Shown: positions 1 to 23,426 of the stretch, piece after piece
Position numbering within the stretch: position 1 is the first letter of the stretch
Layout: every line of letters starts with the position of its first letter
Assembly (NCBI GenBank): GCA_027451505.1
Contig: DAIDJD010000009.1
Location: 1 to 35,549, forward strand
DNA: 35,549 bases
Reading direction: 5' to 3'
Source of the DNA: a candidate division FCPU426 bacterium
Lineage (GTDB): Bacteria > Oederibacteriota > JAJYGY01 > DAIDJD01
Made by a program: the position numbers and the translations under genes
Notes under the pieces: generated by a model
Seen by the model: only the letters and a program-made list of their open reading frames with translations
The model's database searches: none
What the model was told of the DNA's origin: nothing

Positions 1-1189
1 CCTCCAGGCGGCGGACCTCGGTCCGGGCCCAGACGTCGCCGTCGGGGTGGACGCTCGGGGCCATGGTCCGGATCCGGTAGTGGCCCAGGGGGTGGTCCCG
101 GCGCAGGTCGCGGTCCAGGCCGCAGGCCCGGGCGGCCGGGCCGACCATCCCCAGGGCCCGGGCCTCCCCGGACTCCAGGCGGCCCGGGCCCCGGAAGCGG
201 GCCTGCACCGAGGCCGAGCCGCGCAGGAGGGCCAGCGCGCCGGCCAGGTCGCGTTCCGCGGCGTCCAGCCGCAGGCCGAGTTCCCTGAGCCTGGCGGCGT
301 CCGCGTCGGCGGTCGTGCCCCCCGGGCGCACCCAGCCCCGGCCGAAGCGGTTTCCGCACAGGAGCGCGGTCATGTTGAGGAAATCGCCCCGCAGCCGCCC
401 GCAGTACGCCGCGGTGGGCAGGAAGCCGGCGTCGCCGGAGAGGGCGCCCAAGTCGCCCACATGGTTGGCGAGGCGCTCCAGTTCCAGGGCCAGCGCCCCC
501 AGGGCCATGCCGCGGGCCGGGGGCCGCGCCCCGGCCAAGGCCTCGAGCGCCGCGGAGTAGGCGAGCGCGTGGCCGATGGTGGTGTCCCCGGCCAGCGTCT
601 CGGCGATGTGCGGGCTCCGCGGACCGGGGCCGCCCGCCAGGGCCCGTTCCACGCCGCGGTGCTGGTAGCCAAGGAAGATCCCCAGGTGGAGCACGGTCTC
701 GCCGTCGCACTGGAAGCGGAAGCGCCCCGGCTCGATCACCCCCGCGTGGATCGGGCCCACGGCCACCTCGTGCACGCCCTCCCCCTCCACGCGGTACGGT
801 CTGCCCTCCGGGGCCGGTCCAGCGCCGGGGCCGGCGGTCCCGCGCACGGGCCCGGGGTCGGGATGGCCGACCGGATCGAGCCCGCATTGTTCGCGGATCT
901 CCAGTTCGAAGCGCTCCAATTGGGGGAATTCCGCCGCCAGGGAGGGGAAGGCGCCTCGGACGTGCGTCCGTCCCGCCCAGACCAGTCCCCGGGCGTCGTC
1001 GGCCAGGAGCGCCACCAAGGCGCCGCCGGAGCGCCCGCTTCCGGCGCAGAAGTAGGCGCTCGCCCGGCAACCCGCGGCCAGGCGTCCCCTCAGTTCCTCG
1101 GCGAACGCGCCCCAAGGGCGCCGGGGGACGGAGTCCCAGGCCACCGAGGCGCCGTTGCGCAGGGGCGTGTAGGCTCCCGCGGCCTTCAC
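1..1189 (-). CDS. Hydrogenase-4 / complex I-type large subunit (HyfG/NuoCD-like; probable Ehr-type), truncated by window edge
   Basis: Minus frame from GTG at 1189 (VKAAGAYTPLRNGASVAWDS...) open to position 1. Contains the conserved GVIEPGRFRFQCDGETVLHLGIFLGYQHRGVERAL segment of NuoD/HyfG large subunits. Start overlaps the preceding stop by 4 nt. Not in the ORF track because it runs off the window. Confidence 0.85.
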   Translation of the reverse strand, partial: MKAAGAYTPLRNGASVAWDSVPRRPWGAFAEELRGRLAAGCRASAYFCAGSGRSGGALVALLADDARGLVWAGRTHVRGAFPSLAAEFPQLERFELEIREQCGLDPVGHPDPGPVRGTAGPGAGPAPEGRPYRVEGEGVHEVAVGPIHAGVIEPGRFRFQCDGETVLHLGIFLGYQHRGVERALAGGPGPRSPHIAETLAGDTTIGHALAYSAALEALAGARPPARGMALGALALELERLANHVGDLGALSGDAGFLPTAAYCGRLRGDFLNMTALLCGNRFGRGWVRPGGTTADADAARLRELGLRLDAAERDLAGALALLRGSASVQARFRGPGRLESGEARALGMVGPAARACGLDRDLRRDHPLGHYRIRTMAPSVHPDGDVWARTEVRRLE

Positions 1190-2610
1190 GGCCGGCCCGC
1201 CAAGAGGGCGGCCCCGCCCTGGGCCAGCCCCCTCAGGGCGGGGGGCATCCACAGGCCCAGGCCGGCGGCCACGGCCAGCAGGGCCAGGGGCGGCAGGGTC
1301 GTCCAGGCCCCCTCATGGACGCGGCGCATCCCCGCGGGGGGGCTGTCGAGCACGGCCGCAAGGACGGCCCGGCCCAGGCCGAGGAACGCGAGCATCGAGA
1401 AGGCCAGCAGCAGCCCGGCGACCCATGGCCGACCGGCGCGCAGCGCCGCAGAGAGGAGGGTGAACTCGCTGACGAAGGGCGCGAACGGCGGGGAGCCGGT
1501 GACGGCGAAGAAGCCGGCCGTCAGCATGCCCCCGGACCAGGGCAGCAGACGCCACGCGCCCCTCACTTCGTCCAGGTGCTTGCTCCCGTACACCCGCTGG
1601 ATGTTGCCGGCGCACAGGAACATCGCCCCCTCCGCGACGGCCGCGAAGACCATGTGGAGGCACGCGGCGAAGACGCCCGCGCCGCCCAGCCCTAGGCCAA
1701 CGGCGAGGACTCCCATGTTCTCGACGCTGGAGTAGGCCAGCAGGCGTTTCAGGTCGCGCTGGCCCACGATGAAGACGCCGGCGACGGCCATTGAGGCCAG
1801 CCCGAGGACCACCAAGGGGGTGCCGGAACCCGCGCCCGGGCCCGCGGCGACGCAGACCTGGCGCACCCGCAACAGCGCGAGGAAGGCCGTCGAAGTGAGG
1901 ACCCCCGCCAGAAGCGTCCCGGCCACCCCGGGCGCCTCTCCGTAGGCGTCCGGCTTCCAGGTGTGCAGGGGGGCCAGGCCCATCTTGGTCCCGTAGCCCA
2001 CGAGCAGGAAGGCGTAGGCGAGGCGCAGCCAAGTCCGGGAGAGGCCCGGCGCCGAATGGATCAGGGCGTCCAGACCCAGGCCGCCGCCCCCCGGATTCCC
2101 CAGGCCGGCGTAGGCGAGGAAGAAGGTCCCCAACAGCGCCAGGGACGCCCCCGCGCCGCAGACCATGAGGTACTTCCAGGTGGCCTCGACCGAGGCCGGC
2201 CGCCGGCCGAAGTGGACCAGGGGCGCGCCCAGAAGGGTGGCCGACTCCACCGCGACCCACAGGAGGCCCAGGTGCCGCGCCAGCGCGGCGAGGCTCGCCG
2301 CCCCCAGGAACCCGAGCATGCAAGCGACGAACACCCGGTCGTCGCGGTCGGGACGTTCCCTGAGGTAGCCCAAGGCGTACACGGAACAGGCCAGGAACAG
2401 GCCGTCGGTGAGCACGAGCACCAGGGTCCCGGCCGGGTCCAGGCCCAGCAACGCCCCGGGCGCCGGGGCCGGAGCCGGTAGGGCGGCCAGGGTGAGCGCC
2501 AAGTGGGCCGCCGCGCCCGCCGGGAGGAGGGCCAAGCGCATCCCCCGACGGGGGAGCAGGAACGCGGCGGCCCCCAGGATCGGGCCGATGAGCACAAGCG
2601 CGACGAACAC
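1186..2610 (-). CDS. Hydrogenase-4 component F-like / NuoN-like proton-pumping membrane subunit (474 aa)
   Basis: Mrp-antiporter/NuoN-type sequence (GTKMGLAPLHTWKPDAYGEAPG..., RDLKRLLAYSSVENMGVLAVGLGLGG). Confidence 0.9.
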   Translation of the reverse strand: MFVALVLIGPILGAAAFLLPRRGMRLALLPAGAAAHLALTLAALPAPAPAPGALLGLDPAGTLVLVLTDGLFLACSVYALGYLRERPDRDDRVFVACMLGFLGAASLAALARHLGLLWVAVESATLLGAPLVHFGRRPASVEATWKYLMVCGAGASLALLGTFFLAYAGLGNPGGGGLGLDALIHSAPGLSRTWLRLAYAFLLVGYGTKMGLAPLHTWKPDAYGEAPGVAGTLLAGVLTSTAFLALLRVRQVCVAAGPGAGSGTPLVVLGLASMAVAGVFIVGQRDLKRLLAYSSVENMGVLAVGLGLGGAGVFAACLHMVFAAVAEGAMFLCAGNIQRVYGSKHLDEVRGAWRLLPWSGGMLTAGFFAVTGSPPFAPFVSEFTLLSAALRAGRPWVAGLLLAFSMLAFLGLGRAVLAAVLDSPPAGMRRVHEGAWTTLPPLALLAVAAGLGLWMPPALRGLAQGGAALLAGRP

Positions 2611-2613
2611 GGT

Positions 2614-3264
2614 TCAGTCCTTCAGCAGGTTCAGCCTGCGGGTGTCCAGGGAGGCGAAGGTCGCCTGGATTCGGTGGATGACGATACCGGCGACGAAGGC
2701 CGCCGCGAAAAGGTCCAACAGGACCCCCATCTCCACGATCAGGGGGGTCGATTCCGCCAGGAGAAGCCCGAACAGGAAGACGCCGTTCTCCAAGACGAGG
2801 TATCCCAGCACCTGGCCGATGGCCTTGGAGCGCGTGCCCATCAGCAGGAATCCGGAGGCGATGGTGGCGAAGGAGGCCGGAAGGATCAGCGAGCCCCGTT
2901 GGGCGGCGAGGACGGGGAGGCGGGGGGCGAAGCGCAGGGCGGCCGCGGTGGCCGCCGCGCCCAGGAGCACCCCGTAGGGGACCCCGCTCCTCGGTCGCTC
3001 CTCGTCCGGGGAGGCGGCCCCGCGCAGCGCGCCGCGGAGCATCCTGGGCACCAGATAGCCCTTCACCAGGACCGTGCCCGAGGCCAGCAGCAGGAGGGAG
3101 GCCCGGGGATGGGCCGCCAGGAGGGCGGGGACGCAGCCCAGTAGGGCCCCCTGTTGCGCGACGCTGCGGATCCCGTCCCGGGCCCGGAGGCGTCCCAACG
3201 CCGCAAGGTTGAGCGCCATGGCCGCCGCCACGAGGAGCTCCACGGCCCCGGAGGCGGCGTTCAC
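2614..3264 (-). CDS. Hydrogenase-4 component E-like (HyfE) membrane subunit (~216 aa)
   Basis: Frame of ORF 2614..4191(-), GTG start at 3264 overlapping the upstream gene stop by 4 nt. NuoK-like hydrophobic segments (VLGYLVLENGVFLFGLLLAESTPLIVEMGVLLDLFAAAFVAGIVIHRI). Confidence 0.8.
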   Translation of the reverse strand: MNAASGAVELLVAAAMALNLAALGRLRARDGIRSVAQQGALLGCVPALLAAHPRASLLLLASGTVLVKGYLVPRMLRGALRGAASPDEERPRSGVPYGVLLGAAATAAALRFAPRLPVLAAQRGSLILPASFATIASGFLLMGTRSKAIGQVLGYLVLENGVFLFGLLLAESTPLIVEMGVLLDLFAAAFVAGIVIHRIQATFASLDTRRLNLLKD

Positions 3265-4163
3265 GCCAGCGCCAAAAGCAGGGAGAACCCGGCCAACAGG
3301 CAGGCCCAGAGGAGCAGGACGGGAACGCGTCTCAGGCTCCAGCGTGCCAGGGCCGACTCGAGGACACCGACGGCGAGGGCCACGCCGGCCACGCCCGCCG
3401 CCAGGGCGACGCGGGGGCCCGCCGGGGGGCAGGGTCCCGGAAGGAGCATCCGGGCCAGCAGCGCCGCGAACAGGGTCAGCCTCAGCGCGGAGGCGTAGAG
3501 CGCCAGCGCCAACAGGGGGCCGCCGTGGTCCAGCAGCATGGCCTCGTGGACCATGGTCAATTCCAGGTGCGTCTGGGGGTCGTCCACGGGCAGGCGGCAG
3601 TTCTCCGCCAGGAGCACCACGAAGAGGGCCCCCGCGGCCAGCGCCAGGGCCGCACCGCCCCCCGCCGCGCGGGTCCCGGCCTCGAGCAGGCCGCCCAGCC
3701 GCGGCGACCCCGAAATCCGCGCCAGGGCCAGAAGGGAAAGCAGGAGCGCGGGTTCGGCGAGGCTGGAGAGGGTCAGTTCGCGGGCCGCTCCCATCCCGCC
3801 GAAGGCCGAACCCGTGTCCAGCGCCGTCAAGGTGGTGAAAAAGCGCCCCACCGCGATCAGGGCGGCGAAGGCCACGAAGTCGCCGGCGAAGCCCGCCGGG
3901 CCGGGGCGCGGCCCCAGGGGAAGCAGCAGCGCGGCCGCCAAGGTGGCGGCCAAGCCCAGGGCCGGCCCCAACTGGAAGACCCAGGTGGTCGTCGAGCCGA
4001 CCACGGCGTCCTTGCGCCAGAGCTTGGCCAGGTCGTGGTAGAGCTGGAACGCGCCGGGGCCGCGCCGCCCGGCGAAGAAGGCCTTGACCCGGTTGATGAG
4101 GCCGGGCGTCAGGGGGGCGGCGACGAGGAGCGCGGCGGTGTCCGCGATGGGCAAGGGGGCCAT
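3261..4163 (-). CDS. Hydrogenase-4 component C-like / NuoH-like membrane subunit (300 aa)
   Basis: Contains the NuoH/HyfC/HycD signatures RRGPGAFQLYHDLAKLWRKD and ENCRLPVDDPQTHLELTMVHEAMLLD. Confidence 0.92.
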   Translation of the reverse strand: MAPLPIADTAALLVAAPLTPGLINRVKAFFAGRRGPGAFQLYHDLAKLWRKDAVVGSTTTWVFQLGPALGLAATLAAALLLPLGPRPGPAGFAGDFVAFAALIAVGRFFTTLTALDTGSAFGGMGAARELTLSSLAEPALLLSLLALARISGSPRLGGLLEAGTRAAGGGAALALAAGALFVVLLAENCRLPVDDPQTHLELTMVHEAMLLDHGGPLLALALYASALRLTLFAALLARMLLPGPCPPAGPRVALAAGVAGVALAVGVLESALARWSLRRVPVLLLWACLLAGFSLLLALA

Positions 4164-4168
4164 GGGCT

Positions 4169-6142
4169 CTAGGCGAGGAGCAGGACGGCAAGGGTCAGCG
4201 CCGCCGCGGCCAGGTAGGCCTGTACGCGGCTGCGCTGGAACGAGCGCAGGTGGCCGAGGATCCGGTTGAGCCTCCGCCAGAGCGGGGCCATCCCGTGCTC
4301 GAGGACGATGTCCGGGGCCACGGACTCGATCCGGGAGGGCCCCGGCCAGAGGCGGCGCCCGGGGGGCTCACCCTCCATCCGCACCCTCAGCACCCCGCCG
4401 AAGAGTTCCACCAAGGACCGGGAGAGCGCGGTGGCCGTGGTCTGCGCCCTGGCGCCGCCCCCCGCGTACCCGCAGGCCCAGGTGTCCCCGCGACGCAGGC
4501 CGCGGCGGCGCAGCCAAGCGGAGGAGCCCAGGGCCAGGGCCGTGCCCAGCAGGACCAGCGCCGCCGCGGCTGGGGAGGTCCAGGCCAGCGCGGTCCCCAG
4601 AAGGGGCTCCGCGACCAACCCGGGCCTCCAGGTCTCCGCCACCCGCGCCAGGGGCCCCGCCAGGGGCGCGGCGGAACCCAGGGCCACGCAGCCTCCGGCG
4701 GCCAGGGCCATGGGAAGGAGCAGGCCCGCCGGCGCCTCGGTGGCCCGCCCGGCGTCTTGGGTCCGGGCCCGGCCCAGGAAGACCGCGGCTTGGATGCGGA
4801 CGGCGCCGGCCAGGGCCAGGGCCCCGGTGAAGGCCAGCGCCGCCAGGGCCAGGGGCACGGCCAGGGGCATCGTCGGGGATCCGGTGAGGGCGCGGGTCCC
4901 GCCCAGGTACAGCAGCCACTCCCCCACGAAGCCGTTGAGCGGGGGCAGGGCCGCGGCGGCGCCCGCGCCCACGGCCATCGCCAGGGCCGTGGCCGGCATG
5001 CGCCCCGCCAGGCCGCCCAGGCGGTCCAGGCTGCGGGTGCCCGTGGCGCGCTGGACCGCGCCCGCTCCGAAGAACATCAGGGGCTTGAACAGGCTGTGGT
5101 TCCAGCAGTGCAGCACGGCCGCCGCCACGCCCAGCGCCACCCAGCCCGGATGCCCGGTCGCGGCACCCAGCAGGGCCAGCCCGGCGGCCATGGCGGCCAC
5201 GCCCATGTGCTCCATGCTGCTGTAGGCCAGGCTGCGCTTCAGGTCGGACTGGGCCAGACCGAAGAGCGCGCCCCCGGCGGCCGAGGCCGCCCCGAGCGCC
5301 AGGAGGCACTGGCCCCACCAGGGTTGCGGAGCCGGGAGCAGCGCCGTGAGGCGCAGGATCCCGTAGAGCCCGACGTTGAGCATCGCCCCGGAAAGGACGG
5401 CGGAGGCGTGGCTCGGAGCGCCGGCGTGGGCCCCGGGCAGCCAGAAGTGCAGCGGGAACAGTCCGGCCTTCAGGCCGAAACCCGCCAGGGCGAGCAGGAA
5501 GGCGGCCGCCGCCGCCGTCGCGGGCAGCGCGGAGAAGGCGGTGCGGGACAGGGCGGTTGTGCCCGTGTGGGCCAGAAGCAGCGCGAACAGGGCGGCCAGG
5601 CAAAGGCTGCTGAGGTGGGCCGCCACCAGGTAGACCCAGCCGGCCCGGCGTATCCCCGGGTCGCCGTGTTCGCCCGCGGCGACGAAATAGCCGGAGACCT
5701 CCATGGCCTCCCAGGCCAGCAGGAAGGGCGCCGCGCCGCGCGAGAGAACCACAAGCCCCATGGAGGCGGCCAAAGCCGCCATCCAGGAGTCCAGGATGCG
5801 CCCCCGCGGGTGGTCCGCCCGGGCGTGGTAGCCCAGGCCGAACACGGCGCTGAGGCCGGGCACCGCGAAGATCGGCAGCAGGAAGGCCCAACTCAAGGGG
5901 TCCGCGCCCAGGCGCAGCGCGCCGATGGGCAGCCGCCCGGAAAGGGTCAGCGTCCCGGACAGCCCCCGGATGAGTCCGTCGATGGAGCAAAACAGGCCCA
6001 GGACGGCCCCGGAGAGCGTGAGGGCGCAGGCCAGGCGCTGGGCGCCCCCGGCGCGGCGGCGGTCCAACCACACGGCCGCCCCGGCCAAGGCCTGCAGGCC
6101 CAGCGCCAGAAGCGCTCCGGCCAAGTCCCCGGCCGAGGTCAC
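4169..6142 (-). CDS. Hydrogenase-4 component B-like / NuoL-like membrane subunit (~657 aa)
   Basis: Proton_antipo_M-type sequence (LKAGLFPLHFWLPGAHAGAPSHASAVLSGAMLNVGLYGILR; LKRSLAYSSMEHMGVAAMAAGLALLG). GTG start at 6142 overlaps the arsR stop; the ORF-track extension to 6400 is not needed. Confidence 0.9.
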   Translation of the reverse strand: MTSAGDLAGALLALGLQALAGAAVWLDRRRAGGAQRLACALTLSGAVLGLFCSIDGLIRGLSGTLTLSGRLPIGALRLGADPLSWAFLLPIFAVPGLSAVFGLGYHARADHPRGRILDSWMAALAASMGLVVLSRGAAPFLLAWEAMEVSGYFVAAGEHGDPGIRRAGWVYLVAAHLSSLCLAALFALLLAHTGTTALSRTAFSALPATAAAAAFLLALAGFGLKAGLFPLHFWLPGAHAGAPSHASAVLSGAMLNVGLYGILRLTALLPAPQPWWGQCLLALGAASAAGGALFGLAQSDLKRSLAYSSMEHMGVAAMAAGLALLGAATGHPGWVALGVAAAVLHCWNHSLFKPLMFFGAGAVQRATGTRSLDRLGGLAGRMPATALAMAVGAGAAAALPPLNGFVGEWLLYLGGTRALTGSPTMPLAVPLALAALAFTGALALAGAVRIQAAVFLGRARTQDAGRATEAPAGLLLPMALAAGGCVALGSAAPLAGPLARVAETWRPGLVAEPLLGTALAWTSPAAAALVLLGTALALGSSAWLRRRGLRRGDTWACGYAGGGARAQTTATALSRSLVELFGGVLRVRMEGEPPGRRLWPGPSRIESVAPDIVLEHGMAPLWRRLNRILGHLRSFQRSRVQAYLAAAALTLAVLLLA

Positions 6143-6519
6143 GCCACCCCTTTGGGATCCGGCCGCCGCGCGCGGCCGGGTCGCGCGGCGGGCTCCCCCA
6201 GGCGCGCCAGCAGGCGTTGGCTTTCCCGCATGCGCTTGCGCAGGATGGCGGAGACCGGGCGCAGCACGCGGAACACGTCCGGGTCCCGGATGCCGTAGTG
6301 GATGGTGGTGCCCTCGTGGCGGGTCTTCACCAGCCCCTCCTGGCGCAGGATGGCCAGGTGCTTGGAGACGCTGGGCTGGGGCATGTCCATGCGCGCGCAC
6401 AGCCGCCCGACCGGCAGCTCCCCGGCCCGGAGCAGCTCGATCAGGCGCAGCCGGGCCGGGTGCGCGAGCGCGCCCAGGAAGTCCGCTTTGACCTTGAAGA
6501 CGAATTCCTCCGACGGCAC
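6139..6519 (-). CDS. ArsR/SmtB-family transcriptional regulator (126 aa)
   Basis: wHTH: FLGALAHPARLRLIELLRAGELPVGRLCARMDMPQPSVSKHLAILRQEGLVKTRHEGTTIHYGI. Confidence 0.92.
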   Translation of the reverse strand: MPSEEFVFKVKADFLGALAHPARLRLIELLRAGELPVGRLCARMDMPQPSVSKHLAILRQEGLVKTRHEGTTIHYGIRDPDVFRVLRPVSAILRKRMRESQRLLARLGEPAARPGRARRPDPKGVA

Positions 6520-6593: not shown

Positions 6594-6911
6594 TCAAATC
6601 CGCGCGGACGCCGGGCCGTCGAGGACCTTGTAGAGGTCCGCGTCCACGAGCTGGGGCGCGTTCGCCCAGCACGGGCAGTCGGGCACGTCCCGTTTGCCGT
6701 CCCGGTTGAGGCGGATCGCCTCCTCCAGGAGCGCGACCCGCCGCTCGGGCGGGGCCGACGAGTCCAGGCTGGCGTAGAGCTGGGAGTCCAGCTTTTGGGT
6801 CTCGGAGAGCCAGCAGGTGCAGTACGGCACGAGGCTCTTCTCCTCCCGGTGGTGGAGGATGGCCCGCTCCAATTCCTCGAGGCGTGCCGGAACGGCTGGG
6901 GGGGCGTCCAT
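6594..6911 (-). CDS. Small protein of unknown function with two CxCW half-repeats (105 aa)
   Basis: MDAPPAVPARLEELERAILHHREEKSLVPYCTCWLSETQKLDSQLYASLD...ALLEEAIRLNRDGKRDVPDCPCWANAPQLVDADLYKVLD. Good SD (GGAAGGAG) upstream of ATG at 6911. Confidence 0.75.
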   Translation of the reverse strand: MDAPPAVPARLEELERAILHHREEKSLVPYCTCWLSETQKLDSQLYASLDSSAPPERRVALLEEAIRLNRDGKRDVPDCPCWANAPQLVDADLYKVLDGPASARI

Positions 6912-7131
6912 GGTGCATCTCCTTCCGGGGAGGGTACGGTGCGCCGCGCTCCGGTCGGGGAGCCGGTCGAAGCGCGGGCCGCGCCGGCTACCGTGAGCAG
7001 GCTCCGGGAGCGCGGGACGCCCATGGTACGGAGCAAATTCCGTGCCGCGCTTCCTTGGGCGTGCGGCGCGCATCGGGGCCGGCCCTTGGGCGGCTGCGGT
7101 CTGGGGCCTTCACGGCCATGGTCCGGGCGTT

Positions 7132-7164
7132 TTGGGGTTGGGGTGCCGCGACCCCAATTGGGGT
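7132..7164. repeat. Cluster of TTGGGGT/ACCCCAA heptamers, including ACCCCAATTGGGGT palindrome
   Basis: TTGGGGTTGGGGTgccgcgACCCCAATTGGGGT read directly. Intergenic between the divergent small CxCW gene and the ywiC-like gene. Confidence 0.85.
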
Positions 7165-7286
7165 GTTCCCGCCAGGGCGGCTTTTCCCGCCCGCCGCCGG
7201 GTTTGGGACCAAGGTCACAGAGCGCGCCCCGCCCGCGTGGGAAGATGGTCTTGTCCCGGGAAACCGCCGGGGGTTTAGGGGGTGGC

Positions 7287-8132
7287 ATGGAACGTCCGAA
7301 AGGTGATCCGCCCATGGGAACGGGTGCGGCCCGAAGGTTCCGGGTTCCTGGCGAACATGGGGCTTGGTGGGCCTTCGGCACGACTTGGGCGGGCGCCTTC
7401 GCGCTGGCCTGGATTCGGCACGCCGACCGCGGGGCGTGCTTGGGGGCCGCGGCGGCCCTGGCGGCCGGGTTTCTGGCCCAGGATTGGGTTCTGGGGCTGG
7501 TCGCCGGGGCCCTGGGCCGGGGCGCGCCCGGCGCGTGGGGGGCCTCCACGGGTTGGCTTCTCGTGGCAGTGGCCGCGGCCGGGGCCGCCCTGACCGGCGT
7601 CCGCGCCGGGGCTCCGCTGGGCTGGAGCGCGCTTTGGTGCGCGCTCGCGCTGGGCGCCTTGGGAGGGCTGGCCCTGCGGGCGGTCGTCCCGGGCCGGGGA
7701 AGGCGTTCCCTCGCCGCCACCGCGGCGCTCCTGTCGGCCCCCGCCCTGGTTTTCGGTTGCCTGGCCTTCGGATTCACCCCGCGGGCGCTCGAGGCCTGGG
7801 CCTGGGGCTTGGTTTTCTACCCGGCCGCGACGCTCGCGGCCCAGGCCTTTGTCCGGGGCTTCCCGGAGCGGGCGCGCTGGGCCGGTCCGGCCCTGGTGGC
7901 GTCCCTCGGCTTGGCCGCCGCCGCGCTGAGGGCGCCCTTGGCGGCCCTGCTCCTTTCGGCCGATGCGGCCTTCCTTTGGGTCTCCATACGGCGGCGCTGG
8001 AGGCGGAGGCCCCAGGGCCTGCCCGAGCCCGCCGCGGTGCGCCGCTTCGGGTGGTACCAGGCGGGCTTCAGCGTGGCGCTCACGGCCGTTTGGGTGATGG
8101 TTTTCGGCGGGGTCCGGGTTCCCGGGACCTGA
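7287..8132 (+). CDS. YwiC-like family integral membrane protein (~281 aa)
   Basis: RFRVPGEHGAWWAFGTTWAGAFALAW motif near the N terminus, multiple TM helices. Start at 7287 or 7314; the ORF-track extension to 6558 is not supported. Confidence 0.8.
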   Translation: MERPKGDPPMGTGAARRFRVPGEHGAWWAFGTTWAGAFALAWIRHADRGACLGAAAALAAGFLAQDWVLGLVAGALGRGAPGAWGASTGWLLVAVAAAGAALTGVRAGAPLGWSALWCALALGALGGLALRAVVPGRGRRSLAATAALLSAPALVFGCLAFGFTPRALEAWAWGLVFYPAATLAAQAFVRGFPERARWAGPALVASLGLAAAALRAPLAALLLSADAAFLWVSIRRRWRRRPQGLPEPAAVRRFGWYQAGFSVALTAVWVMVFGGVRVPGT

Positions 8133-8199
8133 GTCACAGCCCGCGGCGGCCCGGCGTGGCACACTGGAACAGCCACGAACCCCTTCTCTTGGAGACCCC

Positions 8200-8697
8200 A
8201 TGGAATCCGAAGCGCCCTTTCCCCCGGCGCCGGGCGCGCGTGCGCTGGATGTCCGTCCCATCCTGGAGCGCGGCGGCGAACCCTTCGCCGAGATCATGGG
8301 CGCGGTGGCCGCGCTGGCTCCCGGGCAGGCCCTGTCCTTGCGCGCGCCCTTCGAGCCCAAGCCGCTCTACGCCGTACTGGAGGGCAAGGGCTTCGCCCAC
8401 CGCACCCGCAGGCTCGGCGACGCGGATTGGGTCGTCGAGTTCAGGCCGGCAGGGGCGGGGGCCGGGGAGGCGGCCCCCGAGATCGACGTCCGCGGCCTGG
8501 AGCCGCCCGAACCCATGGTGCGCATCCTGGAGCGGTGCCGGAGCCTGGCCGAAGGGGGCACGCTTAGGGTGGTGCACGACCACCGGCCCGAGCTCCTGTA
8601 TCCGCGCCTGGAGGCCCTCGGGCTCGCCCACGCCACGACCGAGACCCCGGACGGCCTGATCCACCTGGAGATCACCCGACCCCCCCGGGGAGCGTGA
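8200..8697 (+). CDS. Two-domain DUF2249 protein (165 aa)
   Basis: Two tandem LDVRPI.../IDVRGLEPPEPMVRILERCRSLAEGGTLRVVHDHRPELLYPRLEALGL units typical of DUF2249. Confidence 0.85.
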   Translation: MESEAPFPPAPGARALDVRPILERGGEPFAEIMGAVAALAPGQALSLRAPFEPKPLYAVLEGKGFAHRTRRLGDADWVVEFRPAGAGAGEAAPEIDVRGLEPPEPMVRILERCRSLAEGGTLRVVHDHRPELLYPRLEALGLAHATTETPDGLIHLEITRPPRGA

Positions 8698-9989
8698 GCA
8701 TGCCCCGCGAGGCGCTTCCCACGCGCCTGTTCTGGGGCGCCCTGGCGGCGGGTTTGGGGGCCGGGCTGGCGGCCCAGGTCCTGGTGGCCGTGCGTCCCGG
8801 GGATTTCACGCTGCATTGGTTCCGGGAGCCGGTGCAACTGGCCGCCCTGCACCTCACCACCCTGGGCTTCGTGGGCCTGCTCATCCTGGGCGTGCTCACC
8901 CAGTTCCTGCCCATGCTGCTGGGCCGGGGCCTGGGGTCGATCGCCCTTTCCGGCGCCGCACTGGGGCTTTTCGGCGCGGGATTGGCCGCGCTGGTGGCCG
9001 TCTTCCTGGGGTGGCGCTTCCCGGGGCCGGCCTGGGCCGCTGGGGCGGGTCTGCTCGGCGGGGCCCTGGTGATCCTGGCCCTGTCCGGGCCCGCCCTGCT
9101 CCGCGGCGGGGGCCGGCACGCGCTCACGCGGGCCACCCTGGCCTCGTCGTTGGCCTACTTGGTGGGCACGGCGCTCCTGGGCACCCTGATGGCCCAGGGT
9201 CTGGTGGGGTTCCCCAGGGTCTCGACCGGTCCCCTTGAGCTCATCCGGCTGCACGCCCACCTGGGGTTGGCGGGCTTCGGGACGCTGATGGTGTTCGGGG
9301 TCTCCTACGCCCTGCTGCCCATGTTCAACCTCTCCAAGGGTTGGTCCCCGTGGCCGGGCTGGGCGGCGCTGGCGGCCTTCCACCTGGGCCTGGGCGCGAC
9401 CGCCCTGGCCGCCCTGGCGGGCGTCCGCGCCGTCGGGCGTTGGGCCGACCCCCTTCTGGCCCTGGGAACGGTTTTTTACCTCTACCAGGTCCGCCTGATC
9501 CGGGCCAAGGCCGTGCGCCCCGCGGCCGACGCCAGCGTCCAGGCCTACACCTGGGCTTGCGCCTGTCTGGTGGGCGCGGCGCTGTGGTCCTGCGCGCTCC
9601 AGTCCCGCCCGGCTGAGCCGGGCGCCGACGCCGGGGTCGTCTACCTGCTGCTGTTCGGGTTCCTCGGCGGCGCCATCGCCAGCCAGCTCCTCAAGATCGT
9701 GCCGCTGCTCGCCTGGGTGGACCGGTTCTCCGGACTGGTCGGCCGGGCCGCCACGCCCTCGGCCGGCGACCTGCTGGACCCCCTGCTGGCGCGCCTGGTC
9801 CTGCCGCTGCACGCCGCGGCCGTGGCGGTCGGTTGCTGGGGCCTGGCCTCCCATGGGACGGGATGGCTGCGCCTGTCGGGATGCCTGGGGACGGCGTTGT
9901 TCCTGGACCTGGGAGGGATCGCGGTGGCGGCCCGGTTGAGGGGCGCCGCGCGGGTCGAGCCGGCGGCCCCCCAGGGCGCGCCGGCTTAA
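8694..9989 (+). CDS. NnrS-like / heme-copper oxidase subunit I-like integral membrane protein (431 aa)
   Basis: Polytopic. Conserved LAALHLTTLGFVG and LIRLHAHLGLAGFGTLMVFGVSYALLPMF His motifs. GTG start overlaps the DUF2249 stop; alternative ATG at 8700. Confidence 0.7.
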   Translation: MSMPREALPTRLFWGALAAGLGAGLAAQVLVAVRPGDFTLHWFREPVQLAALHLTTLGFVGLLILGVLTQFLPMLLGRGLGSIALSGAALGLFGAGLAALVAVFLGWRFPGPAWAAGAGLLGGALVILALSGPALLRGGGRHALTRATLASSLAYLVGTALLGTLMAQGLVGFPRVSTGPLELIRLHAHLGLAGFGTLMVFGVSYALLPMFNLSKGWSPWPGWAALAAFHLGLGATALAALAGVRAVGRWADPLLALGTVFYLYQVRLIRAKAVRPAADASVQAYTWACACLVGAALWSCALQSRPAEPGADAGVVYLLLFGFLGGAIASQLLKIVPLLAWVDRFSGLVGRAATPSAGDLLDPLLARLVLPLHAAAVAVGCWGLASHGTGWLRLSGCLGTALFLDLGGIAVAARLRGAARVEPAAPQGAPA

Positions 9990-10000
9990 GGGAGGCGGAC

Positions 10001-10339
10001 ATGGATTCGAACATCGACGGCGCGGAGGCCGGGCGGACCGGCCCCATCCCGGCGGAGGCCTATGGCGCGTTGCGCCAAGTGGTGGATCCCGAGCTGGGCC
10101 TGAACGTTGTGGACCTGGGCCTGGTCCTTTCCTTGGAACGCCGCGGCGGGGTTCTGGAACTGGACTACCAGCTCACCGCCGAGGGGTGCCCGGTCGCCTC
10201 CATCATCGAGGAGAGCATGCGTGCGGTCCTCGAGGCCCTGCCCGGGGTGGCCGAGGTGCGCATGCGGCGGATCGCCGACCCGCCTTGGGGCCCGGAACGC
10301 ATCACGCCCGAAGGCCGCGCGGCCCTCGGGCTCGCCTGA
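10001..10339 (+). CDS. MIP18/DUF59-family metal-sulfur cluster assembly factor (112 aa)
   Basis: LRQVVDPELGLNVVDLGLVLSLER...LTAEGCPVASIIEESMRAVLEALPGVAEVRMRRIADPPWGPERITPEGRAALG. Confidence 0.9.
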   Translation: MDSNIDGAEAGRTGPIPAEAYGALRQVVDPELGLNVVDLGLVLSLERRGGVLELDYQLTAEGCPVASIIEESMRAVLEALPGVAEVRMRRIADPPWGPERITPEGRAALGLA

Positions 10340-10348
10340 GGGGGCCGT

Positions 10349-10735
10349 ATGCGGTCCGAGGGCAAGGCGGTGGTGTACGGCTGCTCCGGGTGTTCCGGCG
10401 CGGGGCAGATGGCCAATGCCTTGGCGGTGCGCCTGGACCGCGAGGGCCGGGCCGAGATGTCGTGCATCGCCGGGGTGGGCGGCGGCGTGGAATCCCTTGT
10501 GCGTAAGGCGCGGTCCGCGGCCCGGGTCGTGGCCATCGACGGATGCCCCCTGCACTGCGCCCTAAACAGCCTGCGCCTGAGGGGCGTGGAGCCGGCGCTG
10601 CACGTCGACCTTGCGGCCTTGGGGGTGCTCAAGCGGCCCCATGGTGATTTCGATCCGGCGCAGGCCGGCGAAATCTACGGACGCCTGGCCCAGGCCCTGG
10701 CCGGGGAGCCCGCCCTTGCGGGCTCCCCGGACTGA
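10349..10735 (+). CDS. Putative zinc-binding protein with DGC domain (128 aa)
   Basis: VVYGCSGCSGAGQMANALAVRLDREGRAEMSCIAGVGGGV...VVAIDGCPLHCALNSLR. Confidence 0.85.
   Translation: MRSEGKAVVYGCSGCSGAGQMANALAVRLDREGRAEMSCIAGVGGGVESLVRKARSAARVVAIDGCPLHCALNSLRLRGVEPALHVDLAALGVLKRPHGDFDPAQAGEIYGRLAQALAGEPALAGSPD
10701..10730. terminator. Perfect 13-bp stem-loop overlapping the 3' end of the DGC gene
   Basis: CCGGGGAGCCCGC-CCTT-GCGGGCTCCCCGG, 5 nt before the end of the CDS; no T tract. Confidence 0.6.
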
Positions 10736-10775
10736 CGGCACACTGGGTCCTTCCGCCGCCATTGGAGATGCGTCC

Positions 10776-11501
10776 ATGCCGAACCAACGCCCGCCCAACG
10801 GTGTCCGCAAGGACCCGCCAGCGCCCACGACCCGGGACCTGGCCGGGTGCGAGCTGTTCGGCGAATTCGACGAGGCCGGCAGGGAGGAACTCCTCGCCGG
10901 TTCCTCCCTGCGGAGGCTGGCCTCCGGGGAGCGGTTGTTCGTCGAGGGCGAACCCTGCGCGGCCCTGCACCTGCTGCTGGACGGCGAGGTCAAGATGCAT
11001 AAGCTGTCGGCCCAGGGCAAGGAGCAGGTGGTCCGGCGCCTCAAGCCGGGGCAGATCTTCGGGGCGGCACCGCTGTTCACACCGGGAGGGACCTTCCCCG
11101 CGACCGCCGTGGCCCTGGCCCCTTCCCGGGTCCTGAGCGTGCCCAAGGCCCGGCTTTTGGCCTTCCTGGAGCGCCGGCCCGGGCGTTTCCTGCGCGTGCT
11201 GTCCTTTGTCTCCCAGCACCTCGAGCAGATGATGCGCCTCGCCGAGAGGGTGTCCCTGGAGAGCGTGCCGCGGCGCCTGGCGGGGCGGCTGCTGGAATTG
11301 GGCCGGGAACAGGGCGGCCCGAAGCCCGGGCAGGTCGTGCGCCTGGGGCGGTCCCAATCCGAATTGGCGGCCGATCTGGGCACCGTGCGGGAGGTCCTGG
11401 GACGCACCCTGCGCCGCTTCCGGGAACGGGGCCTGCTGCGCATGTCCGGGCGCAACGTCGTCCTTCTGGATCCCGAGGGCCTGGCTTCGGTCGTGGAGTG
11501 A
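10776..11501 (+). CDS. Crp/Fnr-family transcriptional regulator (241 aa)
   Basis: cNMP-binding-like domain (GEVKMHKLSAQGKEQVVRRLKPGQIFGAAPLF) plus C-terminal HTH (LGRSQSELAADLGTVREVLGRTLRRFRERGLLRM). Confidence 0.92.
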   Translation: MPNQRPPNGVRKDPPAPTTRDLAGCELFGEFDEAGREELLAGSSLRRLASGERLFVEGEPCAALHLLLDGEVKMHKLSAQGKEQVVRRLKPGQIFGAAPLFTPGGTFPATAVALAPSRVLSVPKARLLAFLERRPGRFLRVLSFVSQHLEQMMRLAERVSLESVPRRLAGRLLELGREQGGPKPGQVVRLGRSQSELAADLGTVREVLGRTLRRFRERGLLRMSGRNVVLLDPEGLASVVE

Positions 11502-11562
11502 GTGCGGCAAGGCCCGCGACGCGGCCCGGGACGGCGTCCTTCATGGGCCCCCAGGGTCGGCT

Positions 11563-12852
11563 GTGCTGAACCCCCAGCCTGAACAGATCCTTCCCCGGGC
11601 CTTCTGGCCCTTCCTGGCGGTCGCGCTGTTGAGCGCGGCCGCCTCCCAAGCGCTCCTGGCCCTGGCGCCGGGGGCCTACACCCTGCCGTACCTCCGCAAT
11701 CCCTGGATGCTGGCCTCCGTCCACCTGGCCGGGCTGGGCTGGCTGGGCACGCTGTTCTTGGCGGTGTCGGTCCAGGCCGGGCCCGTGCTCGCCCACCGGG
11801 ACCGGGGCCGGACCTGGGCGGCCTGGGCCGGGCCGGGCCTGTTCCACGCCGGGGCCCTGGGTTTGGTGGCCTTCATGGCCGGCCTGCGCGGCTGGGTCTG
11901 GCTCGGCGCGGCGCTGGCCGGCCTGTTCTTGGGGTACGCCGCGGAGGCGGGCCGCCTCGCGGGCTTGGCGTTCGGCGGCGCCCCGCGCACGCGCGCCTGG
12001 TCCGGGCTCGCCGCGGCCCACGCCTATCTCGCCGCGCTCATGGCCCTGGGCTCGCTCATGGCCGTCGGCCTCCTGCGGCCCCTCCTGCCCCAGGCCCCCG
12101 AAGTGAACCTGGAGTTCCACCTCCACCTGGCCCTGGTCGGCTTCGCCGGGATGGCGGTCCTGGGAATGCTTCCCAAGCTCCTGCGCCTATTCCTCGGCGC
12201 GACCCGCTATCCGACGTGGCCGGGTGTCTGGGCCGGGCGGGCGGTGCACGCCGCGCTGTCCCTGGAGTTCCTGGCTTGGCTGGGGGCGGGCCGGGCTTTT
12301 TCGGTCGCCGCCGCGTTGGCCGTCCTGGCCGCCGCCCTGGGCCTCGCCCTACAGGTCCTGCTGCAGTGCCGCGCCGCCTCAAAGCCGTTGGTGAGCAGTT
12401 CCTTCGCCCTCCAGGCCCTCGCGTTGGTGTGGATGCTGGCCGCCGCGGGCCTGGACGTGGCGCGGGCCGTCCGCGGCCTGTCCTACGCCGGGGACGCTTC
12501 GCTGGCGTACCTGGCGCTGTTCGGCTTCGTGGGGGGCGTCCTCCTGGGCACGATCCAGCGCATCGTGGCGGTGCTGGCGTGGATGCGGCGCTTCTGGGCC
12601 GTTTCCTCGGAACGGGAGGTGCCCACGGCCTGGGGCCTCATCCCGAAGGGGCCGGCCTGGGCCGCGGCCCTGCTGCACGCAGCGGCCGTGCCCTGTGGGG
12701 TGCTGGGCCTGGTGTGGCGGAGCCCGGGGCTCATCCGCCTGGCCGGCGCCGCGGGCTGCCTGGGCGTGCTCCTCACCTTGGCCCTCATCCCCTGGGCCCT
12801 GCTCCACGGCCGGGCGGGGCGGCTCCTCCCTAAGGAACCCGAGACCGTTTGA
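11563..12852 (+). CDS. NnrS-like / heme-copper oxidase-like membrane protein, paralogue of 8694-9989 (429 aa)
   Basis: Same architecture and His motifs (LASVHLAGLGWLG; LEFHLHLALVGFAGMAVLGMLPKLL; YLALFGFVGGVLLG). GTG start. Confidence 0.7.
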   Translation: MLNPQPEQILPRAFWPFLAVALLSAAASQALLALAPGAYTLPYLRNPWMLASVHLAGLGWLGTLFLAVSVQAGPVLAHRDRGRTWAAWAGPGLFHAGALGLVAFMAGLRGWVWLGAALAGLFLGYAAEAGRLAGLAFGGAPRTRAWSGLAAAHAYLAALMALGSLMAVGLLRPLLPQAPEVNLEFHLHLALVGFAGMAVLGMLPKLLRLFLGATRYPTWPGVWAGRAVHAALSLEFLAWLGAGRAFSVAAALAVLAAALGLALQVLLQCRAASKPLVSSSFALQALALVWMLAAAGLDVARAVRGLSYAGDASLAYLALFGFVGGVLLGTIQRIVAVLAWMRRFWAVSSEREVPTAWGLIPKGPAWAAALLHAAAVPCGVLGLVWRSPGLIRLAGAAGCLGVLLTLALIPWALLHGRAGRLLPKEPETV

Positions 12853-12914
12853 TTTCGACGCGGAAAGAGGTGCCCGCGGCCCTCATCCCCCGGCCTGGGG
12901 CCTCCGCGCCCCGC

Positions 12915-13514
12915 TCAGCGGGCGAATTCCGCCGCCGCGGGCCCGGCGCCTTCCCCCGGCCGACCGGCCAGCAGCGCCGCGCGCAGTCGGGTCCTCGCGC
13001 GGGCGAGGCGCGACATGACCGTCCCCATGGGTATCCCCAGGGCGGCGCCGATGGCGGCGTAGCGCAGCCCTTGGACGTCCCTGAGTTCGATGATCCTGCG
13101 GCCATCCGGGCTCAGGCCGCCCTTCAGCGTCTCCAGAAGGGCGAGCCGGGCGAGCCGCTGGACGTCCGCCTCGCCGTCGGAAACCCGACGCAGCGCGGCC
13201 GCGTGGAGGTACACCTCGAGGTCCCCCTCCCGGCTCACCAGGACGCGCCGCCGCGCGCGCAGGCGCGCGTAGCATAGGCGCAGGCAGATCTGGCGCAGCC
13301 AAGCGTAAATCGGCGCGCGGAACACGTATTCCCCCAACCTCCGGAACGCGATGATGTAGGTCTCCTGGACGATGTCCTCGGCGTCGGAATCCTGCCCGCC
13401 CAAAAAAAACCGGCTGGCCCGCAGCAGGCGGGGCCGGTACCTCTCGAAAAATTCCCTTTCAGCGTCCGGACTCCCCGCCAGCACGCGCCGGACCAGTTCC
13501 TGCTCTTCCACCAT
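12915..13514 (-). CDS. ECF-type RNA polymerase sigma factor (199 aa)
   Basis: Sigma-70 region 2 (DAEDIVQETYIIAFRRLGEYVFRAPIYAWLRQICLRLCYARLR) and region 4 (RRIIELRDVQGLRYAAIGAALGIPMGTVMSRLARARTRLR). Confidence 0.93.
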   Translation of the reverse strand: MVEEQELVRRVLAGSPDAEREFFERYRPRLLRASRFFLGGQDSDAEDIVQETYIIAFRRLGEYVFRAPIYAWLRQICLRLCYARLRARRRVLVSREGDLEVYLHAAALRRVSDGEADVQRLARLALLETLKGGLSPDGRRIIELRDVQGLRYAAIGAALGIPMGTVMSRLARARTRLRAALLAGRPGEGAGPAAAEFAR

Positions 13515-13568
13515 GGACCACCCGACACGGCACTGGGTCTGCCGGAATCAGCGGGTTTCGCTGTCCAT

Positions 13569-16500
13569 TCATTGTCCCCCCAATCCCGGCGCAACGTTGG
13601 GAATTGCGGGTCCACCCCCGGAAGCGCCCGGGTTCCGGTCCTCCGGGGGGCCCAGCACGACCAGCAGCGCATGGGATTCCCCGTCCAGGAGCAGCGGAAC
13701 GCGCGGGGACGGGCCCACCGGGAACTCCCGGCCGTCCAGTTCGAGGCGGGCCACGCCCCGGCACACCGAGCGCGGGTTCGTCACCCGGATCTCCCAACGC
13801 GTGCCGCCCCGCTCGAAGCGGATTTCGAAGCCCGGCCATTCGGGAGGGATGCAGGGTTCGATCCGCATCGAGTCCGCGTCCAGGGTCAGCCCCAGGATGG
13901 ATTCGATCCCCACCCGGTGCATCCAGGCGGCGGATCCCGTGTACCAACTCCAGCCGCCCCGGCCCACATGGGGCGGCATCGAGAGCACGTCACCGGCCAT
14001 CACGTAGGGCTCGATCCGGTATCGGAGCATGCCGGCCCTGGTCGAGGCGACCCTGGCGGGGTTGAGGGCGGCGAAGAGTTCGTGGGCCTTCGCGCCTTCC
14101 CCCAGGCCGGCGAACGCGGCCACCGCCCAGGCCGCGGCGTGGTTGTACTGCCCTCCGTTTTCGCGGATCCCCGGGGGATACCCGGCGATGTATCCAGGAT
14201 CAAGGCCCGCGCCGGTGAATGGCGGTTCCAGCAGGACCTGTTGGCCGCCTCCCTTCCTCCACAGGTGTTCCTCCAGCGCCGCCATGGCCCGCGCCGCCCG
14301 CGCCGGATCGGCGGCCCCCGAAAGGACCGCCCACGACTGGGCGATGGAATCGATGCGGCATTCCGACAGGGCCGCCGACCCCAGGGCGGTTCCGTCGTCG
14401 GAGAACGCGCGCCGGTACCAGTCCCCGTCCCAGCCCCGGCTTTCGACCGCGGCGACGACGTCCGCCGCCGCCGCGCTCCAGCGGGCCTCCCGGGGGCGCT
14501 CGCCCCGCGTCCGGGCCAGGACCGCGAAGCGCCTCAGGTTGTCCACCAGGAACCAGGCCAGCCAGACGCTCTCGCCCCTGCCCGCCCGGCCCACCCGGTT
14601 CATGCCGTCGTTCCAGTCGCCGCCGCCCATCAGCGGCAGCCCGTGGCGTCCGGTCGCGAGGCTGCGGTCGAGGGCCAGGGCGCAATGCTCGTACAGCGTG
14701 GCCGTGTCGCGCGTCGCGGTGGGGGTGAAATAGAGGTCGTCGGTCCCTTCGGCGAGCGGGGGGCCCTCGACGAAGGCGACCTCCTCCTCCAGGACGGCCC
14801 GGTCCCCGCTGGAGTCGACGTAGCGGGCCACCGCGTAGGGAAGCCAAAGGCGGTCGTCGGTGATGCGCGTGCGCACGCCCGCTCCGTGGGGCGGGTGCCA
14901 CCAGTGCAGCACGTCGCCCTCCTTGAACTGCTTGCCCGCGGCGCGCAGGAGGTGGTCCCGGACCGCCGCGGGGTTGGAATGGGCCAAGGCCACCACGTCC
15001 TGGAGCTGGTCCCTGAAGCCGTAGGCGCCCCCGCACTGGTACAAGGCCGTGCGCGCCCACAACCTGCAGCTGAGGGTCTGGTACAGGAGCCAGCGGTTGA
15101 GCATGAGGTCCATCGACCGGTCGGGGGTGCGCACCGTGAGGGCGCCCAGCGTCCGGTCCCAGAAGGACCTCACCTCCGCCAGCAGCCGGTCGAGGTCGCG
15201 GGCGCGGTAGTCCTCGACCAGTGCGGCGAGCCTCTCGCGGTCGGGCGCCTGCCCCAGAAGGACCCGGAATTCCGCGCTGGCGCCGGGTTCCAGGTCGACG
15301 GCGCGGCGCAGGCAGGCGCAGGGGTCCAGCCCCGCGCCGGCCCTTCCCGAAAGCGCCGCCCCCGTGCGCAGCGCCCGCGGTCGCCGGAGCCCGCCGTGCC
15401 GCCCCAGGAATTCCCTGCGGTCGCAGGTGTAGGATACGGGCCCGTTTCCGGCGTCCAGGAAGGCCAGCGCCTCGGGATGCGTCGGGTGGAAGGGGTTCCT
15501 GGCCGTCAACAGGCCCAGGGCGGCGTCCCACCCGGTGACGAGGGTGTGGGCCGTGGCCTGGGGCTCGGTCCCCAGCACCCAGGGAACGTAGGCCGTAAGG
15601 CTCAGGCGGCGCGGGCGCGCGGACACGTTCTCCACGACCAACCTTGAGATCTTGATGGGGTCGGACAGGGGCACGAACTGCGTCAGGACCATGCGGATGC
15701 CCCGCGCCGTCGACTCGAAGCGGCTGTAGCCCTGGCCGTGGCTGGCCCGGTAGCGGCCTCCCCTCAGGCGTATGGGCTGCGCGGTGGGGCCGAACAGGGC
15801 GCCGTTGTCCTCGTCGCGGACGTAGAAGGCTTCGCCTGCGGGGTCGCTGACGGGATCGTTGCTCCAGGGACTCAGTTTGTTCTCGCGGGAATTGCCCGAC
15901 CAGGTGGCGCCGGATCCCGACTCCGAGACCTGGAACCCGAACTGGGGATTCGCCACCACGTTGATCCAAGGGGCCGGGGTGTCCTTGCCCTCCTCGAGCG
16001 TCACCCGGTATTCCTGTCCGTCCTGCGCGAAGCCGCCCAGGCCGTTGGCCAATTCCAACGCGGACTCCGGGAGCGGGCCGCAGTCGGCCGCGTCCGCCGC
16101 GTCCAGCCAGGGCGGGGGGCTGGGGAGCGGCGCCACCCGCGCCAGTTGCTCGGAGAGGCTGCCGTGGCCGGCGTGCAGGACGGCCCGCGCCGCGCACAAC
16201 AGGAGGTCCCGTTCCCGCCGCGGCAGCAGGCAGGCCTGGACGACGTGGATGGCCCCGCCCCGGTCTCCGGGGCCCGGAGCCCGATGCGCGCGCGCGAGGT
16301 CCTCGATCCACCGCTGGAACTCCGCGGCGTAGGACGCGGGCTCCTCGTTCAGGACCACGAAATCCACGGCCAGGTTCTTGAGCCGCCAATATTCCCACGC
16401 CAGGACGAGTTGCCTGAGGATTTCCCGGTCCGAGGCCTCGTCCATCCTCAACAGCAACAAGGGAAGGGCCCCCGAGATGCCGCGCGACCAAAGGACACCC

Positions 16501-22226: not shown

Positions 22227-22327
22227 CTCAGCGGCCCGGGGCCGGCGGCGCCGGGTGGGGATGCTTCGGGTTTGCCATCATGTCCCCCGCCACGGTCGCG
22301 TGGCTCCTTCGGCGCGGAACGCCCCGG

Positions 22328-22732
22328 CTACCCCACCGGGGGAAGGCGGCTTTGTTCCTCCAGGACGCGCTTCAACCGTCCGAGGTCCGGCGGCCAGTCG
22401 AGGAAGTCGACGGCGCCCATCTTGACGGCGGCCACCACCTCCGCGAGCCTTGGCGTCGCGGCCGCCAGGACCACCGCCGCGCGGCCATGTTCCATAAGGA
22501 GGTCCGCCAGAAGGTCGACGCCTTCGGCGGCGCAGCAAACCACGATGACGTCGGGCAGGGATCGGCGCGTTCTCGCGACGGCCTCCCCGAGCGACGACAC
22601 CGGGGGCACCCTGTACCCTTGCCGTTTGAGGAAGCCGTTGAGCTTCCCGGTCCGGACTCCGGGGGCCGCCACGATCAGGGCCGTTCGCGGCGGATCCCCT
22701 CCGCGGGGGGTTGGCCTGGATGTTTCCGCCAT
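22328..22732 (-). CDS. Degenerate CheY-like receiver-domain protein (134 aa)
   Basis: ATG at 22732. TALIVAAPGVRTGKLNGFLKRQGYRVPPVSSLGEAVARTRRSLPDVIVVCCAAEGVDLLADLLMEHGRAAVVLAAATPRLAEVVAAVKMGAVDFLDWPPDLGRLKRVLEEQ follows the receiver fold pattern but lacks canonical acidic, Asp and Lys residues. Confidence 0.7.
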   Translation of the reverse strand: MAETSRPTPRGGDPPRTALIVAAPGVRTGKLNGFLKRQGYRVPPVSSLGEAVARTRRSLPDVIVVCCAAEGVDLLADLLMEHGRAAVVLAAATPRLAEVVAAVKMGAVDFLDWPPDLGRLKRVLEEQSRLPPVG

Positions 22733-22910
22733 GATTCCACCCGCCTGGGCACTGGGTTTGCCGGTTGGATCGTTCCTGCCGTCTGGGAATGCCCCGGCCG
22801 CGCCTTTTATTCCCCCTTTGGCGACGGAATAAAGGCCCCCCGCCGGGACATGGACTCTCGCCCAACGCCCGCGCATCCGCGCCGACCGGAGGGCCCCTAA
22901 GGGAGCTTCG

Positions 22911-23348
22911 ATGAACGCGATCCAAATCCTCGAAAAGGACCACAAGTCCGCCAAAAGCGCCATCCAGGAGATCGGAAGGAGCAAGGGCCAGAAAAAGAAG
23001 AGCCTGTTCGAGGACTTCAAGGAGGAACTCGAGAGGCACGACCGCGTCGAGGAGCAGGTCTTCTATCCCGCGGTCCAGGCGCACTCCCTGGCGGGGGACG
23101 TTCCGGCGATGGACCGGCAGGCCCACGAGGCCGTCGGGACCGCGCTCGGCCTCTTGGAAAAGATGCCCATTTTCGACCCGAGGTGGGATCCCACCTTCCG
23201 GGACATGCGCATCCAGCTCCTCAGGCATTTCGCCGACGAGGAAGGCAGGATCTTCCTCGCCGTGAAAAAGGCGATGAAACCCCAGGAGTTGGAGGACCTC
23301 GGCGGCAAGATGCGGACCTTCAAGGCGGGCCGCCCGCAGCCGGCCTGA
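22911..23348 (+). CDS. Hemerythrin HHE domain protein (145 aa)
   Basis: ILEKDHKSAKSAIQEI...FKEELERHDRVEEQVFYPAV...HEAVGTAL...QLLRHFADEEGRIFLAV. Confidence 0.92.
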   Translation: MNAIQILEKDHKSAKSAIQEIGRSKGQKKKSLFEDFKEELERHDRVEEQVFYPAVQAHSLAGDVPAMDRQAHEAVGTALGLLEKMPIFDPRWDPTFRDMRIQLLRHFADEEGRIFLAVKKAMKPQELEDLGGKMRTFKAGRPQPA

Positions 23349-23426
23349 GGAACGTGGCCTCCCCCGACGCCCGTCGTCCGTATCAGCGACCCTGGCGTCG
23401 GCGGTCGAGGCGGCCCTCCCCCGGGG

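Follow-up and report, generated by a model that had tools for sequence, protein, structure and literature searches.

A Hyf-like operon truncated at the end of contig C9

The 35,549 nt stretch of DNA analysed here (the window) is contig C9 of a genome of 252 contigs (2.36 Mb, ~90% complete), and its position 1 is a contig end. This end cuts a Hyf-like operon on the minus strand, with the gene order B-H-E-F-L. An ArsR-type regulator stands at the head (6139..6519, −), and is followed by EhrB, a HyfB/NuoL-type antiporter-like subunit of 650 aa with the HxxNHSLFK motif kept (4169..6121, −), and EhrH, a NuoH/HyfC-like membrane subunit of 300 aa (3261..4163, −; PF00146, 6.9e-30). EhrE is a HyfE-like small membrane subunit of 215 aa (2614..3261, −) that matched PF00420 below the cut-off and the hydrogenase 4 membrane subunit model at 3.9e-18, and EhrF is a HyfF-like antiporter-type membrane subunit of 474 aa (1186..2610, −) that keeps TM7 K210 and TM5 E123. 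The last gene, EhrL, encodes a NuoC/NuoD-fused, HyfG/HycE-like large subunit, the first 396 aa of which are present before the contig end truncates it (2..1189, −). The presence of HyfB-, NuoH-, HyfE- and HyfF-like genes beside EhrL bears out the claim of the first-pass annotation that the membrane arm is retained.

The EhrL frame is open from 1189 to 2, and its residues, including HRGVERALAGGPGPRSPHIAETLAGDTTIGHALAY, match those previously quoted. Three lines of evidence identify it as a real gene rather than a chance ORF: a Pfam Complex1_49kDa match (3.4e-21), best orthologues from related genomes that are 48-63% identical across most of the query or its full length, and HycE (7z0s_E) as the best PDB match to the EhrL family profile (5.7e-75). 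The first-pass annotation had seen no cysteine at the L1 site, and re-reading of the frame agrees: the window reads AGDTTIGH, aligned on HycE C241-G-I-C244-G-F-A-H248, with the cysteines replaced by A and T.

Several other features of the window were recorded. A small unannotated protein with paired YCTCW / DCPCW motifs adjoins the ArsR gene (6594-6910, −). A divergent cluster (7300-12852, +), likened to a nitrosative or respiratory stress cluster, encodes several multi-pass membrane proteins, FeS_assembly_P, a DGC-domain protein and a Crp-type regulator; one of the multi-pass proteins (8694-9989) gave no Pfam match. A very long open frame of 2885 aa occupies 13569-22226 (−).

The probable remainder of the complex on contig C220

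A search of the genome for PF01058 small subunits returned four loci, one of them at the very start of contig C220 (G000:C220; L027/L032). This contig opens with the final ~48 codons of a large-subunit gene, RGRLLRYKVVDASFHNWPGVALAMRGGQLSDFPLCNKSFGLSYCGHDL, followed by a stop. The C-terminus reads ...LSDFPLCNKSFGLSYCGHDL*, and comparison with full orthologues identifies it as the end of an Ehr large subunit. In this end, NKSFGLSYCGHDL, the L2 motif (DPCxxC; HycE C531/C534) is gone, and the C-terminal CxxC is absent from the aligned position. A 266-aa fusion of a two-cluster ferredoxin (HyfH) domain and a NuoB/HyfI domain follows (L027:156-956), so that the HyfI/NuoB-like small subunit is present, whereas in E. 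coli HyfH and HyfI are not fused in this way. All eight ferredoxin-type cysteines are kept, and the proximal four-cysteine site is intact (residues C139, C142, C206 and C236). Because the searches yielded a single N-terminal piece of Ehr, on C9, and a single C-terminal one, on C220, the two are very likely one gene, joined here by homology and copy number rather than along a continuous contig; ~54 codons, including the HycE R478 region, fall between the contigs and are thus unseen for the host genome. Past the small subunit, C220 carries, by inspection, an apparent RND-type efflux gene on the opposite strand.

Loss of the NiFe ligands and a distinct pocket

To compare the active-site region across the family, a MAFFT residue table was compiled from 99 rows of Ehr, 10 of group-4 hydrogenases and 11 of NuoD, with C-terminal positions scored in the 97 Ehr sequences having a C-terminus. 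Residues are given in HycE numbering, and their roles are assigned as in the published FHL structure (PMC9474812). When the HMM is aligned to HycE (7z0s_E), L1 reads flsdrvCGiCgfaHstay against hlaeslaGDttigHalay in Ehr, and L2 reads sldpCysCtd against sfnLsyCGhD. Position C241 is A in 86 of the 99 Ehr sequences, S in 10, C in two and T in one; C244 is T in 83, S in 10, A in five and V in one, and is never C. C531 is S and C534 is G in all 97 sequences scored, and the canopy position Asp529 has N in 88, D in eight and, by direct reading, G in the C220 sequence of the host. A CxxC pair was looked for at the aligned L1 and L2 sites and found at neither. The first-pass annotation was therefore right that the N-terminal half of the NiFe ligand set is lost, but not in limiting the loss to that half, as C531 and C534 have been replaced too. 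Ehr large subunits do not have the four NiFe cysteine ligands of a group-4 [NiFe] hydrogenase and, with all NiFe-holding residues lost, Ehr must run on other chemistry.

The pocket is nonetheless strongly conserved. E193 (95/99), H284, R395, E437 and R478 are kept, and two signatures are specific to Ehr: G242, D243 and H248 in 99/99 (G-D-x4-H), and N525, K526, S527, F528, S531 and Y532 in 97/97 (N-K-S-F-x-x-S-Y). Complex I (NuoD/NuoB/NuoH) resembles Ehr in having no NiFe ligands, and its proton-path H, E and R are retained in Ehr. However, the complex I quinone sites are replaced, position 192 being Ile and position 242 Gly in 99/99 where the NuoD rows have H and Y/F, and the proximal cluster is built on CxxC in Ehr rather than on a tandem CC. 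Judged by its residues, the Ehr pocket is neither a hydrogenase site nor a canonical complex I site.

Phylogenetic placement and maturation genes

In a careful tree of 40 rows, Ehr formed one clade (100/100) that includes the window EhrL, and a single branch set Ehr plus HycE/HyfG apart from the other rows (98/98). A tree constrained to keep all hydrogenases together was 15 log units worse (p-AU 0.06), so the sister relation of Ehr to HycE/HyfG is favoured by these sequences, short of strict proof. Placement within a hydrogenase clade would have spoken against an Ehr assignment; EhrL falls in the monophyletic Ehr clade, outside the hydrogenase clades. A Foldseek search with the AF2-modelled structure of one orthologue (pLDDT 84.8) returned HycE as the best PDB match (E 1.2e-30, TM 0.84), with complex I C/D next. 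The E. coli formate hydrogenlyase/hydrogenase-4 systems (HycE, HyfG) are thus closest in both fold and sequence; like Ehr they have NuoC and NuoD fused, and they share the membrane-arm relatives and the hydrogenase-type CxxC proximal cluster, but they keep CxxC...CxxC and a C-terminal tail, and Ehr has neither. The position of Ehr is between group-4 hydrogenases and complex I, on the branch that joins them.

The host genome encodes HypD on C14, and a HypB-like gene lies on C98 beside a canonical [NiFe] hydrogenase with the motifs RICGICPTSH and DPCLSCSTH; this separate enzyme explains the host hyp genes. A search for HypD in 18 Ehr-bearing genomes from the phylum of the host failed to find it in 14, including 10 of the 12 that are near-complete (≥90% complete). 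It was likewise not found in five of 12 further Ehr-bearing genomes from other groups. As most Ehr-bearing relatives are without HypD, Ehr is independent of NiFe cofactor synthesis and, so far as the HypD marker tells, occurs in hosts unable to make that cofactor.

These data bear on the proposal that Ehr is still a functional, if divergent, group-4 [NiFe] hydrogenase whose metal is bound by a different set of ligands. The sister relation to HycE/HyfG and the presence of HypD and HypB-like genes in the host would suit such an enzyme. The proposal is nevertheless largely refuted, and we consider it extremely improbable: the family consensus has no thiol at any of the four ligand positions, the protein ends at L2 with no C-terminal tail for maturation cleavage, HypD is missing in most Ehr-bearing relatives, and the Hyp genes of the host are accounted for by C98. 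Ligand positions, small subunit, phylogeny and hyp context all favour the original reading of an Ehr-type complex rather than a [NiFe] hydrogenase, and the window complex is almost certainly an Ehr complex, a family that already has a name; it is an additional member of a known gene family, and the family itself is not new.

Ehr complexes have been known since about 2005, and we know of no function assigned to them in the ~20 years since. They have been described as lacking the ligand motifs, and as of unknown function, in Geobacter (PMC7894505, PMC13194489), Nitrospira (PMC10284858, PMC12342949), Sulfobacillus (PMC4378227) and Margulisbacteria (PMC6349859), and the earlier statement that the Ehr substrate is unresolved agrees with the literature (PMC10284858, PMC12342949, PMC4378227). 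The window has the same subunit set and the same loss of L1 and L2 as the Ehr of Geobacter (GSU0739-0745), Nitrospira and Sulfobacillus, and Geobacteraceae sequences share its clade.

Conserved and dispensable clusters of the small subunit

All eight ferredoxin-type cysteines are kept in 73/92 small subunits, that of the host included, and in about 16-19/92 the ferredoxin-type clusters are diminished or gone. The ligands of one cluster have been lost as a set in Elusimicrobiota (L095/L105), Geobacter (L085/L104/L127) and some relatives, and both clusters in L114, L129, L047 and L048; the losses appear stepwise and in separate lineages. The four proximal-cluster cysteines persist in nearly all 92. 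Electron entry through the ferredoxin-type clusters cannot, therefore, be universal, and the persistence of the pocket and proximal cluster while these clusters were lost argues that the two form the functional core of Ehr. The same pattern could be explained if the large and small subunits had no net catalysis and the complex were an Mrp-like ion transporter in which the proximal cluster served as a redox-dependent gate, since several lineages have wholly or partly lost the ferredoxin-domain clusters and kept the pocket and proximal cluster. We regard this as improbable, because the strong conservation of the pocket suggests a bound ligand and most small subunits retain both extra clusters.

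Complex I, quinones and the identity of the acceptor

Genes for menaquinone synthesis were sparse: MenD gave no match over the cut-off in 23 genomes, and MqnA/D were found in seven of the 23. We rejected the exclusion of quinone on these grounds, because UbiA-type prenyltransferases occur in nearly all of those genomes and NuoD in these genomes has its normal quinone motifs. NuoD was read in ten relatives and has its normal His/Tyr motifs there; the loci examined closely also contain a long series of complex I genes. Ten genomes (G002, G003, G006, G009, G011, G015, G019, G022, G027 and G031) combine a canonical-looking NuoD with no MenD over the cut-off and no MqnA/D; they are mostly near-complete, and a missed or novel quinone route, or scavenging, is possible.

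The coexistence of canonical complex I with Ehr (host contigs C78 and C139; GPQHPSTHG and R-x-D-Y in the NuoD of relatives) means that a second quinone reductase in the same genomes would need its own justification. Together with the invariant pocket signature, which is unlike NuoD and hydrogenases alike, it raises the possibility that the pocket substrate is neither H2 nor quinone but something such as a sulfur compound or small redox metabolite, which would add a chemical class, the third, to the complex I superfamily. No candidate substrate is at hand, however, and no conserved neighbouring enzyme indicates one; we hold this possibility to be a credible minority view. If it is true, the substrate would be bound in the former NiFe pocket by the G-D-x4-H / N-K-S-F-x-x-S-Y signature, beside the proximal [4Fe-4S] cluster, and in many hosts Ehr would be under the control of a PTS EIIA-type regulator.

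Genomic neighbourhood and regulators

A genome scan gave at least 573 confirmed Ehr matches, in Planctomycetota, Verrucomicrobiota, Geobacter, Geothrix, Elusimicrobiota and others. From these, 80 named loci were taken as a neighbourhood sample and joined by those of the relatives (~94 Ehr loci). The operon order (HTH)-B-(B)-H-E-F-L-S is fixed across many phyla. Within the 10 kb examined, no formate dehydrogenase, NuoEFG neighbour, or linked FdhF and HycB/HyfA-type ferredoxin recurred, and the loci showed no conserved neighbouring enzyme that hinted at a substrate. This bears on the proposal, made for Margulisbacteria and Saganbacteria (PMC6349859), that a formate dehydrogenase docks on Ehr (FDH-Ehr). 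It is a proposal about the electron donor, and would fit more than one acceptor. Growth of G. sulfurreducens on formate gives higher levels of Ehr subunits than conditions with hydrogen (PMC7894505), in keeping with a formate-driven complex, but given that no formate dehydrogenase recurs within 10 kb across ~94 loci, we think the proposal unlikely.

A gene combining HTH_17 and PTS EIIA-2 (PtsN-like) domains was found in ~50/94 Ehr loci across phyla, usually directly upstream of B (for example L093:2270-2974 and L035:17587-18249). Most of the HTH-EIIA proteins carry a PHxR-type active-site His, and the position of the gene suggests control of Ehr by phosphotransfer status. A narrow literature search found no report linking PTS EIIA to hydrogenase or Ehr. 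ArsR genes 44-50% identical to that of the window head other Ehr operons (L035, L039, L041 and L120 of Fibrobacterota). The idea that the window ArsR is a metal sensor was dropped, as the usual CxC-type metal site is absent, and a Rhizobium gene upstream of hyfB, considered as a further ArsR, is not one. In the Mycobacterium Rv0081-Rv0087 'formate hydrogenlyase' locus, compared by description only, the ArsR-family Rv0081 heads a hyc-type operon (PMC6177252, PMC3087520); its membership of Ehr is a lead only.

A putative mechanism and a divergent window copy

From the observed gene content, the loss of the four ligands, the proximal site, the pocket motif and the retention of most pumping residues, we infer a direction of electron flow, a ferredoxin donor, an acceptor and ion pumping. 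A low-potential carrier, probably reduced ferredoxin, would deliver electrons to the fused HyfH-like domain of the small subunit, with its two [4Fe-4S] clusters, from which they would pass through the proximal [4Fe-4S] cluster to an acceptor in the large-subunit pocket, the site taken up by NiFe in hydrogenases and by the quinone head in complex I. The acceptor would most likely be an organic electron carrier, and the energy would be coupled to ion pumping via the B-H-E-F membrane arm. As a whole, a low-potential, redox-driven ion pump with an organic acceptor in the pocket is our best explanation, which we favour by a little over an even chance; the fixed operon order, the HypD-free relatives and the formate-linked abundance of Ehr in G. 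sulfurreducens also speak for it. Redox-driven ion pumping by Ehr is, taken by itself, likely; ferredoxin as the donor is about evenly balanced, and an unusually bound quinone is the leading single candidate for the acceptor, though a tentative one. The replaced quinone His/Tyr, the non-universal ferredoxin clusters and the unusually divergent window copy count against this explanation. Constraints that lead to specific tests of Ehr function, also in the genetically tractable Geobacter, come from the residue table, from hosts that have no HypD, from the ferredoxin clusters that can be dispensed with and from the regulators that recur.

The window copy differs from other Ehr in having one HyfB-like subunit where several others have two, and ArsR rather than HTH-EIIA at its head. 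Its EhrL has a long branch and is changed at 5/73 near-invariant sites (median 0), so that of 93 Ehr large subunits it ranks third in deviation. In EhrF, K328 of the HxxNHxxxK segment, a Lys in 90/92 EhrF, is Glu in the window, and the adjoining His/Asn is Ala. The Ehr frames of the window are intact. With near-invariant sites changed and EhrF K328E, the copy may be drifting, whether by divergence or by slow erosion, or the complex may pump differently.

Additional Ehr copies were seen elsewhere. A Variovorax plasmid (L166) carries two different Ehr operons side by side (6932-14216 and 17628-24812) with a universal stress protein gene between them, and both pockets are ligand-free (GDSS../GDTT.., NKSF.LSY); the Ehr of a Rhizobium plasmid (L167) also lies near a universal stress protein gene. 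In a Verrucomicrobia genome, a second, divergent EhrL paralogue (L108:17166-19034) ends NKSFNLSYSGNDR and lies ~6 kb from the main EhrL.
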